NCBI GenBank assembly: GCA_023249255.1
Contig: JAHFCY010000207.1
Coordinates: forward strand, 1 to 5,714
DNA: 5,714 nucleotides
From: Candidatus Lindowiibacteriota bacterium
GTDB lineage: Bacteria > Lindowbacteria > 2-12-FULL-62-27
Direction of reading: 5' to 3'
Part shown: piece after piece, positions 1 to 5,714 of the stretch
Layout: every line of letters begins with the position of its first letter
Numbering within the stretch: position 1 is the stretch's first letter
The notes under the pieces: generated by a model
Seen by the model: only the letters and a program-made list of their open reading frames with translations
The model's database searches: none
Told to the model about the DNA's origin: nothing
Made by a program: the position numbers and the translations under genes

Positions 1-270
1 GACTTTGCGGCCTATGTCAACGCCGGTTTGAACGACTGGGGCGGCGTGTCGCCCGTAACGCCCGACCACATCAATCCCGAGCGCGCCTGGCCGGCGATCG
101 CCCGACTCAACGGGGCCACCGAGTCCGCGGGGTTTACGCTGCGAGAGAGGCTGACGATTTATCCGCGATACGCACGCGATCCTGAAAAATTTCTTGCGCC
201 CTCGATGCGCGAGCCGGTCGCCCATCTGGCCGGGATGGACGGACTAGCCGCGGAGTCCCGCCGATCATGA
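1..270 (+). CDS. cofG: FO synthase subunit 1 (CofG), C-terminal end only
   Basis: The frame is open from the first base and gives 89 residues before a TGA stop at 268-270; the 5' part lies outside the window. CofG is a radical-SAM enzyme that completes the deazaflavin FO, using the tyrosine adduct made by CofH. The radical-SAM cysteine motif is not in the visible part. The assignment rests on the family's C-terminal signature, LNDWGGVSPVTPDHINPE, followed by the GFTLRERLTIYPRYA stretch, which matches my knowledge of CofG and of the CofG half of FbiC. The next gene is cofH, the usual partner, and the two overlap by four bases (ATGA), which implies one operon and coupled translation. The stop codon is also the first triplet of a 58-bp stem-loop repeat. 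Confidence is high for the family; nothing can be said of the upstream part. Confidence 0.93.
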   Translation, partial: DFAAYVNAGLNDWGGVSPVTPDHINPERAWPAIARLNGATESAGFTLRERLTIYPRYARDPEKFLAPSMREPVAHLAGMDGLAAESRRS

Positions 271-1556
271 CCGGCCGGATGAAGGGAACCCCGCGAAGTC
301 CACGGATGGACGAGAGCGGGGTGACCGTCCTCGCCGACCGCACGCTCGAATCGCTCCTGTCCGAGGCACGGCCGGACATCGCCGGGATTTTGGATGGCGT
401 GATGACGGGACGCGAGCTTTCGCCGCCGGACGCCCTGACACTCTTTGGCGCCGAAGGCCCGGACCTTCAGGCTGTGCTGAAAACTGCGGACGAACTGCGG
501 CGAGCCAAAAACGGCGACGTCGTGACGTTCGTCATCGTCCGCAACATCAATTTCACGAACATCTGTTACACCGGATGCAAATTCTGCGGATTTGCGAAAC
601 GCAAAGACGATCCGGAGGCGGAATTTCTGACGCTCGACGAGATCGCGCGGCGAGCCGAAGAGGCCCGGCAGCGCGGGGCAACTGAAGTCTGCATTCAAGG
701 CGGGCTTTTTCCGAACATCGCCGGAACGTATTACCGCGACATCTTGACGGCGATCAAGACCCGTGTGCCGGACATTCATATCCACGCCTTTTCGCCCTTT
801 GAAATCAAATATGGGTCTGAACGGATGGGCATCCCGGCCCGGGAATTTTTGATCATGCTCAAAGACCACGGCCTTGGCACGATCCCCGGCACAGCCGCCG
901 AAATTCTCGACGTCGAAATCCGACAACAACTCACTCGAAACAAGCTGACCGCCGAAGAATGGATTTCCATCGTCAAAACCGCCCACGGACTCGGCATCCG
1001 GTCGACCTCGACCATGATGTACGGCCACATCGACGGACCGGAACACTGGGTCGGCCATCTCAATACCCTGCGTGAAATTCAAAAAGAAACCGGCGGGTTC
1101 ACGGAATTTGTCCCGCTCGGATTCATCCACTGGGACGCGCCGCTGTATTACGCCGGCGGCGCAAGGCCCGGTCCCACGCGCGACGAAAATCTGAAAGTCC
1201 ACGCGATCGCGCGGATTTTTCTAAATGGCTGGATCGACAATGTCCAGGTGTCGTGGGTCAAACTCGGGCCGCGGTTGGCCCAGTACGTTCTCAAAAATGG
1301 CGGCGCCAACGACTTCGGCGGCACGCTCATGAACGAAACCATTTCGCGGTCGGCCGGAGCGCCGCACGGCGAAGAAGTCACGCCCCTCGAAATGTGCCGG
1401 ATGATCCGCGCCATCGGCCGGACCCCGGCGCGGCGCAACACCCTCTATGACATCCTCGAACGCTACGACGACCACGACCCGCCCGACATCCCGCCTCTTG
1501 TTCCCCGAACACCCGACCAAGAAAGGCAATTGGCTGCCGTCAACAACGGGTTCTGA
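267..1556 (+). CDS. cofH: FO synthase subunit 2 (CofH), radical SAM
   Basis: CofH joins L-tyrosine to 5-amino-6-(D-ribitylamino)uracil using S-adenosylmethionine, the first committed step of FO and F420 synthesis in the cytoplasm. The radical-SAM cluster motif CxxxCxxC is seen as CYTGCKFC, with cysteines at residues 100, 104 and 107, preceded by the typical RNINFTNI strand. Other family marks are CIQGG, HAFSPFEI, GTAAEILD, TSTMMYGH and FVPLGFIHWDAPLY. At 429 residues it is longer than archaeal CofH as I recall it (about 360). Part of the excess is N-terminal: residues 1-19 are encoded by a 58-bp repeat that recurs after the gene's own stop. The ATG at 267 overlaps the cofG stop. ATG 279, ATG 306 and GTG 321 are in-frame alternatives, and 306 or 321 would leave most or all of the repeat outside the protein. 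Family assignment is near certain; the start is not. Confidence 0.96.
   Translation: MTGRMKGTPRSPRMDESGVTVLADRTLESLLSEARPDIAGILDGVMTGRELSPPDALTLFGAEGPDLQAVLKTADELRRAKNGDVVTFVIVRNINFTNICYTGCKFCGFAKRKDDPEAEFLTLDEIARRAEEARQRGATEVCIQGGLFPNIAGTYYRDILTAIKTRVPDIHIHAFSPFEIKYGSERMGIPAREFLIMLKDHGLGTIPGTAAEILDVEIRQQLTRNKLTAEEWISIVKTAHGLGIRSTSTMMYGHIDGPEHWVGHLNTLREIQKETGGFTEFVPLGFIHWDAPLYYAGGARPGPTRDENLKVHAIARIFLNGWIDNVQVSWVKLGPRLAQYVLKNGGANDFGGTLMNETISRSAGAPHGEEVTPLEMCRMIRAIGRTPARRNTLYDILERYDDHDPPDIPPLVPRTPDQERQLAAVNNGF
268..325 (+). repeat. 58-bp stem-loop repeat, copy 1 (cofG/cofH junction)
   Basis: This copy is 54/58 identical to the one at 1554-1611 and starts at the cofG TGA stop. It folds as a two-tier hairpin: outer arms ACCCCGC (288-294) and GCGGGGT (316-322), inner arms GTCCA (298-302) and TGGAC (307-311), a CGGA loop (303-306), and an internal bulge GAA/GAGA between the tiers. 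Similarity to the other copy begins at the stop codon and ends at GTGAC/ATGAC. It lies inside the predicted cofH N-terminus. The family is not one I can name; it resembles REP/BIME-type intergenic elements in size and structure only. Confidence 0.9.
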
Positions 1557-1611
1557 CCGACCGGATGAAGGGAATCCCGCGAAGTCCACGGATGGACGGG
1601 AGCGGGATGAC
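1554..1611 (+). repeat. 58-bp stem-loop repeat, copy 2 (after cofH)
   Basis: This second copy begins exactly at the cofH TGA stop. It has outer arms ATCCCGC (1574-1580) and GCGGGAT (1602-1608), inner arms GTCCA (1584-1588) and TGGAC (1593-1597), and a CGGA loop. Compared with copy 1, the outer-stem pair C289-G321 is replaced by T1575-A1607, so pairing is kept while both bases change. The remaining two differences are G274/A1560, outside the stems, and A314 (GAGA) against G1600 (GGGA) in the bulge. No run of T follows the hairpin, so it is not an obvious intrinsic terminator, although it could protect the 3' end of the cofGH message. Confidence 0.9.
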
Positions 1612-3564: not shown

Positions 3565-3592
3565 ATTACACACTACCGGATGATCCGGTCAA
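3565..3592 (-). promoter_or_regulatory. Promoter of the cofE-npdG operon
   Basis: Read on the - strand, a -35 box TTGACC (3592-3587, 5/6 match) and a -10 box TGTAAT (3570-3565, 5/6 match) are separated by 16 bases. Transcription would begin near 3557, shortly before the cofE coding frame. The promoter overlaps the 3' end of the upstream TPR gene, whose TAG stop is at 3573-3575. The cofE-npdG pair can therefore be expressed independently of the genes upstream. Confidence 0.6.
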
Positions 3593-3971
3593 ATTCGGAC
3601 GCGACAGGTGAAGAGGAATTCTTGAGGATCATCCGCTGCCACAAAGAGACCTGTTCTCCGCGTGTTTGCTCGGGGGCGCCAAACGCCGCGGCGTATTGCG
3701 CTACGAGGGACGGATTGATATTCCGAGCCGTTTGAAATGTCGCGTTGGCCTCGTCCGTCCTTCCCAGAGATTCCAACAAAAGCGCGAGATTCAAAATCGG
3801 CCGCGGATCTCCGGGATTGAGTTTGATCGATTCGTGAAACGCCGTTTCCGCTTCTTTCGCGTCTCCCCGGCGCGCCGCCGCGACTCCCAGATAAAATTTG
3901 GCCTCCGCGTCCGATCCCGCCATCTTGTCGGATTCACGCCACGCCATTTCCGCGTCCGCCGCGCGATCCAT
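3573..3971 (-). CDS. Short TPR protein, probably the 3' remnant of a larger TPR gene
   Basis: The frame encodes 132 residues with tetratricopeptide repeats. Units are seen at about residues 21-54 (AEAKFYLGVAAARRGDAKEAETAFHESIKLNP) and 55-88 (GDPRPILNLALLLESLGRTDEANATFQTARNINP), followed by a non-TPR tail. The first residues, MDRAADAEMAWRESDKMAG, look like the second helix of a preceding TPR, so the protein begins inside a repeat unit. Upstream of the ATG the frame soon enters AT-rich sequence and meets a stop at 4008-4010. No Shine-Dalgarno is evident. The first 38 bases overlap the end of the membrane-protein gene in another frame. TPRs mediate protein-protein contacts; no partner can be inferred. 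It could still be translated by coupling, but I favour a truncated gene. Confidence 0.7.
   Translation of the reverse strand: MDRAADAEMAWRESDKMAGSDAEAKFYLGVAAARRGDAKEAETAFHESIKLNPGDPRPILNLALLLESLGRTDEANATFQTARNINPSLVAQYAAAFGAPEQTRGEQVSLWQRMILKNSSSPVASEFDRIIR
3575..3589. promoter_or_regulatory. 15-bp perfect palindrome in the cofE promoter, candidate operator
   Basis: ACCGGAT-G-ATCCGGT is a perfect 7+1+7 inverted repeat that fills most of the spacer and reaches into the -35 box, a classic repressor position. A shorter match to its core, GGATCATCC, lies at 3626-3634, 48 bp away centre to centre. No T-run follows it, so it is not a terminator for the TPR gene. The bound protein is unknown. Confidence 0.5.
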
Positions 3972-4737
3972 CTGCCATAAACAAAACCATAAACAAAACG
4001 CTTTGAATTATCATCAGAAAGATAAACGCCAAGGTGAACGGTTTCTCCTGATGAAAAGTCGACAATAGATTGCAAACTTGGATTAATAGCCAAACGGATG
4101 AAACGAGGAGTATATACGACGCGATGGCCAGAACACGTTTTATGCGCTCGCCTTGACCGCCAGATAGGGAGAATACAGTTAACCAAATGGCAAATATACC
4201 CCAACTGTGCAGGAGCACTAACTTCTCGTCATCTGGCAACGACGTTCGACTACAGACAACACCCAATGCAATAAATAGCCATATCAGGGTATCCCCTATG
4301 CGTGGTTTCACGAATATCGTCACGGTAGATACGTTAGTGGAGAATTGGGTTGTGGAGTTGTGGTTACTCCACTCGGCTATAACAGCCGAAAGACAGCACA
4401 CCACAAACAAGGTGCTCTGCAAAACCACAATATAATAAAATGAAATGGTAAAAGAGGGTTCATATCGGAAAAGGGATAACATCTTGACTGTTTTCCATAT
4501 GACAGAGATTACAAGGACAAATATAAAAACAGGGGTTCCTATTCTTACTAACTTTTTCTCCGACCGTATTTTATCCCTAAAAACGTAGAATAAGAGTGAG
4601 CTTAAAAGTAAATCGTATGCAATTATCAAATTGCTCAGTAATAGTGTTTCACTTGTAGGCAATGTAATTTGCGAAACCAGAAATCCAGTAACTAAAAATA
4701 TTACGAAAAGGATTACTGAAATATGATCTCTTGTCAT
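3934..4737 (-). CDS. Eight-helix membrane protein with two tandem four-helix halves, unknown family
   Basis: The start chosen is the ATG at 4735-4737, which overlaps the upstream gene's TGA as ATGA; an ATG at 4785 would add 16 polar residues and a longer overlap. The 267-residue protein has hydrophobic segments near 6-22, 32-53, 67-84, 96-120, 150-163, 173-190, 202-220 and 234-254. The two halves resemble each other: ITLPTSETLLL (24-34) with TSLPDDEKLVL (165-175), and PSFTISFYYIVVLQSTLFVV (94-113) with KPFTLAFIFLMIIQSVLFMV (232-251). Each half has LP at the second helix and a Q-S-x-L-F motif in the last. A polar linker (about 122-148) joins them. No catalytic motif is recognised. The last 13 residues, ADGSRGGRGNGVA, are read out of frame from the TPR gene and are probably not original. 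Codon and base use differ from all neighbours, suggesting transfer. Confidence 0.75.
   Translation of the reverse strand: MTRDHISVILFVIFLVTGFLVSQITLPTSETLLLSNLIIAYDLLLSSLLFYVFRDKIRSEKKLVRIGTPVFIFVLVISVIWKTVKMLSLFRYEPSFTISFYYIVVLQSTLFVVCCLSAVIAEWSNHNSTTQFSTNVSTVTIFVKPRIGDTLIWLFIALGVVCSRTSLPDDEKLVLLHSWGIFAIWLTVFSLSGGQGERIKRVLAIASYILLVSSVWLLIQVCNLLSTFHQEKPFTLAFIFLMIIQSVLFMVLFMADGSRGGRGNGVA
3975..3998. repeat. Perfect 12-bp tandem duplication at the island edge
   Basis: CCATAAACAAAA occurs twice in a row (3975-3986 and 3987-3998). On the - strand it encodes VLFM-VLFM at residues 247-254 of the membrane protein, the end of its last helix. It sits exactly where GC-rich TPR sequence gives way to AT-rich sequence, so it may mark a recombination or slippage event at the junction. 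Confidence 0.8.
4351..4373 (-). repeat. Hairpin with GTGGAGT/ACTCCAC arms, copy A
   Basis: Within the membrane-protein gene, arms GTGGAGT (4352-4358) and ACTCCAC (4366-4372) enclose a 7-base loop. The same arms and loop length occur at 4762-4784. A further AGTGGAG at 4336-4342 can compete for pairing with CTCCACT (4367-4373). The segment encodes the polar linker EWSNHNSTT between the two halves of the protein. Confidence 0.55.
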
Positions 4738-5714
4738 GGTGATTTGGGAGCATTGGGATCCTGTGGAGTTGCTGTCACTCCACAATCTCTAAGATCAGCG
4801 AGGTATTTAATTGTATCCAGCGGCATTTCAATCCTCTCCTCCGCCGCGAAAACGCCATCGCGATTGCGGTCGACGTAAAGATGAAGTGGGCCGGGCACAG
4901 CCGTCAAATCCAGCATGTTCCGAAGACCGCCCCACCTGTTTCTAGAGGAATCGCCGCCCCAGAAGACATAGTCCCCCGTGTTGAGAAACATGTTGCCGTC
5001 CTCCAGAAATCGCTCGGCCAGGGAACCATCCGGCTGGGTATTGCCGGAAGGATATATCGAGTTGGGAAAATCTCCAAACAGGACGATGATGTCCATGGCG
5101 CCGTCACCGACATTTCGTTTGGTCCATCCCGGCAGATCTGTTTCGGACACCACCTCAACGCTCTTCATTTTCCTTCCGATCGCCTTTTGGATCTGCGCCG
5201 CTTCCCGCGCCGCACTTTCCCTTGGAATCCAGTTGGTCTGTTCGGTGTAGAATGCGACGTCGACCTTGGAAAGATCCGCGACGGTCGGCAGCCATTTCAG
5301 CATGAATTCAGTGATGACATTTGCCTTGGGAAAAACTGTTTCGACAGTTGTTTCGGGGTTTACAATTTCGTCGGCCGTCTGGTAAATCAGCGCGACGCGT
5401 CCGCCATCCCGACGGTTGCGGATCACGACCGGATCGGCGTTTTCGCCGCCGTCATCCGCGAAACTCGCTTCGACCTTCCAGTCCCCGCCCAGTTGCCGGA
5501 CGGGAAGCGCCCGTGGAGATTGGAAGGGTTTCAGGCTTGGGAGAAATTTTTTCCCGAGTGCGGAGACTTTCATCTTCGGTCCGTCGTTCCAATTATGCAG
5601 AGGAATGGAAATCGGCCGGAAAGATCCGGTTGGCCTGTCAAATAGAATCGAGACCGTGTTGTTCCGGCCGCTTCCGATCTCAAATGAACCGTACAGCGGG
5701 GCGAAACGCAGGAG
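4734..5714 (-). CDS. Secreted-type protein of unknown function with EF-hand-like calcium loop, 5' partial
   Basis: The frame is open from the window edge to a TGA at 4734-4736, giving 326 visible residues; the true start lies beyond the window, and the ATG at 5573 is internal (LYGSFEIGSGRNNTVSILFD precedes it in frame). Near the C-terminus, DRNRDGVFAAEE (visible residues 282-293) is a textbook 12-residue EF-hand or dockerin-type loop with D, N, D, G and E at positions 1, 3, 5, 6 and 12. A central part with alternating hydrophobic strands, DIIVLFGDFPNSIYP, then DGSLAERFLEDGNMFLNTGDYVFW, resembles a flavodoxin-like or amidotransferase-like fold, but no catalytic Cys-His-Glu set is evident. I do not recognise the family. 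The last 30 residues come from lower-GC DNA and contain a hairpin, so the C-terminus may have been altered by the neighbouring island. Confidence 0.75.
   Translation of the reverse strand, partial: LLRFAPLYGSFEIGSGRNNTVSILFDRPTGSFRPISIPLHNWNDGPKMKVSALGKKFLPSLKPFQSPRALPVRQLGGDWKVEASFADDGGENADPVVIRNRRDGGRVALIYQTADEIVNPETTVETVFPKANVITEFMLKWLPTVADLSKVDVAFYTEQTNWIPRESAAREAAQIQKAIGRKMKSVEVVSETDLPGWTKRNVGDGAMDIIVLFGDFPNSIYPSGNTQPDGSLAERFLEDGNMFLNTGDYVFWGGDSSRNRWGGLRNMLDLTAVPGPLHLYVDRNRDGVFAAEERIEMPLDTIKYLADLRDCGVTATPQDPNAPKSP
4762..4784 (-). repeat. Hairpin with TGTGGAGT/ACTCCACA arms, copy B
   Basis: A perfect 8-bp stem (4762-4769 with 4777-4784) encloses a 7-base loop. It lies inside the 3' end of the upstream gene, 25 bases before the membrane-protein start, where it could influence coupled translation. 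Arms and loop size match copy A at 4351-4373, but loop sequences and reading frames differ. Confidence 0.55.

Follow-up and report, generated by a model that had tools for sequence, protein, structure and literature searches.

The cofG-cofH locus of a Candidatus Lindowiibacteriota bacterium raises the question of how one short hairpin repeat can begin exactly at the stop codons of two successive genes. In the stretch of DNA analysed here (5,714 nucleotides, hereafter the window), the 3' end of cofG (positions 1-270, + strand; NCBIfam F420_cofG, 9.5e-24) is followed by cofH (267-1556, + strand; TIGR03551, 6.1e-152), and the longest repeat is a 58-bp pair at 268-325 and 1554-1611. Re-measured, the two copies are identical at 54 of 58 positions (93%), as reported in an earlier note on this DNA. 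Open reading frames and NCBIfam matches place the cofG stop at TGA 268-270 and the cofH stop at TGA 1554-1556, so that both copies do begin at the TGA of a cof gene. The start of cofH is overlapped by the first copy, with an ATG at 267 or, alternatively, a GTG at 321.

The inserting unit is 54 nt long with TGAC at either end. Repeat searches and an empty site in relatives delimit copy 1, the mobile 54-bp element plus flanking TGAC, to 267-325 (+ strand). Its left target TGAC (268-271, numbered -4 to -1) was assigned from covariation, T268 being the proposed partner of guide position +17. A 15-nt spacer (272-286, +1 to +15) follows, recognised as the degenerate remnant of a first hairpin, with GGATG kept, by comparison with two-hairpin copies from the same genome and with a cross-phylum alignment. 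The putative guide at the hairpin foot (287-290, +16 to +19), placed from the geometry of IS608 (PMC5934647), reads AACC here and AATC in the consensus. The fold is the one previously described, a two-tier hairpin (288-322) with a 7-bp outer stem (288-294/316-322), a 5-bp inner stem (298-302/307-311), purine internal loops and a CGGA loop (303-306), and the right TGAC lies at 322-325, at the right end of the consensus. A possible GTG start for cofH supplied by the element (321-323), behind an SD-like GAGAG (312-316), was located by alignment with the CofH starts of relatives; the ATG at 267 is the alternative. Copy 2 lies in the 3' flank of cofH (1553-1611, + strand; repeat search and fold), with its target at 1554-1557, guide AATC at 1573-1576, outer stem 1574-1580/1602-1608, inner stem 1584-1588/1593-1597, loop 1589-1592 and right TGAC at 1608-1611. 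The folding z-scores of the two copies are -3.3 and -3.0.

Elsewhere in the window, a second small repeat, TGTGGAGTTG..(T/C)ACTCCAC, occurs at 4351-4372 and 4762-4783. Its copies are 86% identical, are themselves palindromic (GTGGAGT...ACTCCAC) and flank a low-GC membrane-protein ORF. On the - strand (3573-4785), a TPR-like ORF ends at an AT-rich 283-aa ORF without an NCBIfam match; the composition of this region is unlike that of its neighbours, and it is possibly acquired DNA. At 1660-1745, a purine-rich leader ahead of a 96-aa ORF looks structured by eye and has no Rfam match.

A covariance model built from 28 copies identified 41 copies (E < 1e-4) in the genome that holds the window (3.35 Mb, 88.7% complete), where a pattern search gave 9 close copies and BLAST about 30. 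Hence the possibility, raised beforehand, that only the window's two copies exist did not survive this genome-wide search. The copies are dispersed short palindromes, mostly extragenic (30 of 38 outside coding sequence). Just two of the 60 relatives searched carry the element, both from the same family, with 11 and 3 copies, and the plasmids, phages and viral contigs searched contained none. Copies also accompany core genes, in the rpsO-pnp gap, in the flagellar operon at and downstream of fliR-flhB, and in frame within a glyS-like gene (L014, L024, L032 and L065). At four loci (L021, L299, L107, L085), copies stand head to tail in tandem with a period of 52-54 nt and share the target motif with their neighbours, a pattern to be expected from insertion of a new copy at the terminal target motif of an old one.

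The stems covary. In the 28-copy alignment, 95.2% of the cells are paired and two-sided changes occur at five pairs, against a shuffled mean of 1.6; none of 500 shuffles reaches the observed values, and shifting the partner abolishes pairing. The change from C289-G321 to T1575-A1607, on which the earlier note had based its case, is truly compensatory, the same pair being U-A in 24 copies, U-G in 3 and C-G in 1, and this sole C-G belongs to the window's first copy. The structure is maintained, yet most probably as the substrate of the moving enzyme.

Positions relative to stop codons were listed with genes called by a simple codon-usage script, which leaves start sites uncertain. The TGA of the element is a same-strand stop codon in 13 of 38 copies, compared with 16 of 612 TGAC sites of the same DNA (2.6%; P = 8e-12). 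Of the 38 copies, seven are intragenic on the same strand as the gene and one is intragenic on the opposite strand. Frame 2 of the element opens with TGA and the remaining two sense frames are open, so that, on sequence arithmetic, insertion at a stop codon or at an ATGA leaves both neighbours readable; since the unit is 54 nt (3 x 18), intragenic copies stay in frame. Many downstream genes begin at the 3' ATG or GTG of the element, directly after GGGAG or GAGAG, which suggests, as far as sequence can tell, that they may use the element's own start codon.

Empty sites in relatives show that the element inserts. The protein ends flanking 24 copies were fused into two queries, and the same gene pairs were sought in two relatives. 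In both, cofG and cofH meet in an ATGA start/stop overlap and the element is absent. The plsY-gpsA junction reads TTCTGACCATG or TTTTAACCATG in relatives, and in the window's genome it is split by a clean 53-nt insertion without duplication beyond GA; many copies have TGAC at both ends. Further junctions are empty in relatives, including those upstream of argC, after a flgG-like gene and several others, and the empty sites show ATGA or TGAC at the junction. One copy lies within a protein gene that is uninterrupted in relatives, and a second intragenic copy is common to genome G002 and missing from the paralogues in G001. The earlier note's option of a mobile REP-like repeat supplying stop codons gains support from copy number, covariation and empty sites.

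The family extends well beyond this lineage. A scan of 84,980 species with an inner-hairpin pattern returned more than 110 places among the matches listed, in Sedimenticola, Woeseiaceae, Acidiferrobacterales, Spirochaetes, Eremiobacterota, Nitrospira, a Bacillota MAG, Deferrisomatales and others. In these copies, a GGA-loop hairpin comes first and is joined by a 5-nt linker to the same second hairpin, whose invariance across phyla is partly imposed by the scan pattern; hairpin 1, linker and target lie outside the pattern, and hairpin 1 covaries strongly across phyla. Hairpin 1 is degenerate in the window copies and intact in a third subfamily of the same genome (L290-L293). A wide-family model built without the window's lineage detected 34 copies in the window's genome, as well as 74 and 95 in two gammaproteobacterial genomes. 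In one Sedimenticola genome, some copies are about 100 nt long (e.g. C100:89106-89205), through a roughly 42-nt insertion or by nesting in a longer repeat with agcctgccc...gggcaggc flanks. The protein families recurring beside cross-phylum copies are just common genes or belong to the longer Sedimenticola repeat itself.

Across phyla, the linker varies together with the bases preceding hairpin 1. In 37 distinct target/linker combinations, mutual information is 0.44 bits between target base 1 and linker base 3 (shuffled 0.07) and 0.98 bits between target base 2 and linker base 2 (shuffled 0.14), with P < 1/2000 in both cases; this cross-phylum covariation may come partly from shared ancestry. 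The first contact is Watson-Crick (T-A 14, C-G 11, C-A 5, T-G 0; Fisher P = 9e-5 across phyla), and the second, between target base 2 and +16, is mostly non-Watson-Crick (G.A, A.G, T.T). Within the window's lineage, targets are TGAC with A+17 and CGAC with G+17: T at -4 goes with A+17 in 33 of 33 copies and C at -4 with G+17 in 4 of 4, with none crossed (P = 1.5e-5). Two copies, L072 and L285, have an identical 15-nt spacer and differ in target base as well as guide base. The spacing between target and guide is constant, and the right-end cleavage site covaries weakly with the guide.

On a count from the target, the two linker bases fall at +17 and +16, with the hairpin beginning at +20. The left end of IS608 (ISHp608, IS200/IS605 family) has the same layout, a 4-nt target, a spacer from +1 to +15, a guide from +16 to +19 and a hairpin from +20 (PMC5934647). 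In the IS608 structure, this guide contacts the target through A+17:T-4 and A+16:T-3 (PMC5934647). The covarying pairs of the element, +17/-4 and +16/-3, had been computed before the comparison and coincide with these two structurally known contacts. Unlike IS608, the element has no internal transposase gene, is only 54 bp in total and apparently uses one hairpin for both ends. In addition, most lineages have a spacer that itself forms a GGA-loop hairpin, and the guides differ by lineage along with the target.

GTAG REPs and their RAYT (TnpAREP) enzymes offer the other close comparison, with short dispersed palindromes, a tetranucleotide at the 5' foot, possible TAG stops and locations in ORFs (PMC3733652, PMC6006769, PMC8266576). 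Such REPs are known to supply TAG stops and to lie within ORFs (PMC3733652), and work on one TnpAREP has demonstrated a guide at the REP foot and a predictable shift of the cleavage site (PMC8266576). In contrast, the element has no GTAG. Its feet are AATC, AATG, AGTG, TATG or GGTG, and none corresponds to GT[AG]G: AATC is used in the window's lineage and other NNTG guides elsewhere. It inserts at TGAC, with its TGA stop, whereas REPs are cleaved at CT, and it forms 53-54-nt head-to-tail tandems with no flanking RAYT found. The element thus works like an IS608 end or a REP but lacks both the GTAG foot and the flanking RAYT. CGTC REPs and Rickettsia palindromic elements are alike in inserting in frame in protein genes and in having no dedicated transposase known (PMC3733652). 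The element differs from them in stem, loop and organisation; it carries no CGTC tag, its consensus running TGACCG...GGGATGAC.

The TwoAYGGAY RNA motif (RF01731) consists of two hairpins with GGA-containing loops, which are likewise present in the element. Neither this nor any other Rfam covariance model gave a match at the element in the window or in eight cross-phylum loci. A literature search by sequence strings returned no description of the repeat family, and, to judge from these searches, neither the family nor a natural guide-target code across phyla appears to have been described.

We also searched for the enzyme. Y1 (PF01797) genes are present in all ten genomes checked. About 34 Y1 loci in these genomes have no copy within 1.5 kb, so the suggested link to a RAYT-type transposase is not borne out by proximity. 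The pattern, two covariance models and a scan for generic GGA-loop hairpins returned nothing convincing within 1.5 kb on either side of these loci. The best match near a Y1 locus (L205, E = 0.08) was rejected; it falls on a ribosome-binding site and start codon. Long terminal inverted repeats of a different type flank most of the Y1 genes examined. A typical RAYT (L040) was also discarded as cognate enzyme: the GTAG hairpin upstream of it is single-copy and unrelated to the element. This hairpin (L040, 1350-1385, same genome) lies directly upstream of the RAYT gene and forms a REPtron without dispersed REPs. As the element is non-coding and no Y1 gene was found near it, its mobilisation by Y1 is something that we infer.

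Several other explanations bear on the same observations. A structured RNA in operons, selected at intercistronic junctions and controlling mRNA stability or downstream translation (for cofH, through sequestered GAGAG and GTG), would account for covarying stems in which G-U pairs occur. It would also fit the position of most copies, which lie on the coding strand between genes of the same direction, one of their ends carrying a stop and the other an SD-like sequence and ATG. We nevertheless regard it as rather unlikely, because the same junctions lack the element in relatives, copies also occur in frame inside genes, in non-coding DNA and, in Sedimenticola, behind terminators, and an RNA role does not predict that an unpaired flanking target covaries with the guide. 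The element itself has no intrinsic terminator features, its hairpin being followed by GATGAC without a T run. The narrower proposals of the earlier note, balancing of cofG and cofH expression or stabilisation of 3' ends, fall away as reasons for the element since many unrelated gene pairs and gene interiors carry it; a cof-specific role is unsupported. In both hairpin loops of two-hairpin copies, within covarying stems, GGA forms part of CANGGAUG, which we take to be close to the CsrA consensus, and a dispersed CsrA/RsmA decoy or binding site could be imagined. This reading is very unlikely: csrA was not found in three genomes (the window's own, G000, as well as G002 and G065, all incomplete assemblies; it is present in six others), a result that speaks against the GGA loops existing for CsrA binding, the insertions are separate events in unrelated places, and the covariation of guide and target is left unexplained. 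In Acidiferrobacterales ES_Gamma_002, there are 15 full or partial CsrA-like matches, one of which (C87, 2532-2696) abuts an element copy (2479-2535).

Mobility by another route, through homologous or site-specific recombination at TGAC or a DDE transposase that duplicates a TGAC target, could explain TGAC or ATGA at both ends of many copies and its sharing by tandem copies. It is nonetheless improbable given that terminal inverted repeats are absent, and that a hairpin, a fixed 15-nt spacer and a guide that covaries with the target make up the layout of a Y1 substrate. Finally, local duplication of a cof 3' end without structural selection, suggested by the close similarity of the window's two copies, is refuted by about 41 copies beside unrelated genes in the same genome.

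We therefore consider it likely that the repeat is a 54-bp non-autonomous element moving as single-stranded DNA, guide-targeted, with a Y1 (HUH) transposase most probably mobilising it in trans. The two-tier hairpin would be the binding site of this transposase, and the guide AATC (+16 to +19) at the hairpin foot would pair with the TGAC target 15 nt upstream and, as in IS608, determine where cleavage and insertion occur. Selection of TGAC by this guide would place copies at stop or start codons, and an (A)TGAC target would yield tolerated insertions at TGA stops and ATGA start/stop overlaps. The upstream gene would keep its own stop, the downstream gene could start at the 3' ATG or GTG of the element after GGGAG or GAGAG, and intragenic insertions would remain in frame through the 54-nt length and the two open sense frames. 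Relatives in other lineages have different guide-target pairs. Sedimenticola and relatives have a T run as target, and 14 of 40 such copies lie directly behind a hairpin-plus-T-run terminator, compared with 4% of the T runs present at those loci. That location follows target type agrees with insertion sites being set by a guide; the observed distribution must also bear the mark of selection against harmful insertions.

Chances appear even that these copies represent a widespread, undescribed family of ~54-bp single-strand mobile elements in at least five phyla, with co-evolved guide and target. It seems equally balanced whether the pairs AATC/AATG-TGAC, AGTG-CGAC, GGTG-CATT and TATG-TTTT reflect natural retargeting, through guide changes, to tolerated sites, for instance start/stop overlaps or the T runs of terminators. 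In the laboratory, a changed guide has been used to retarget IS608 (PMC5934647). If this reading is true, evolution would have performed the same retargeting repeatedly and across phyla, in a code readable from genomes. The family would then provide a compact natural data set of guide-target pairs accepted by a Y1-type enzyme, and would explain how a repeat can start exactly at stop codons while leaving both genes unharmed.
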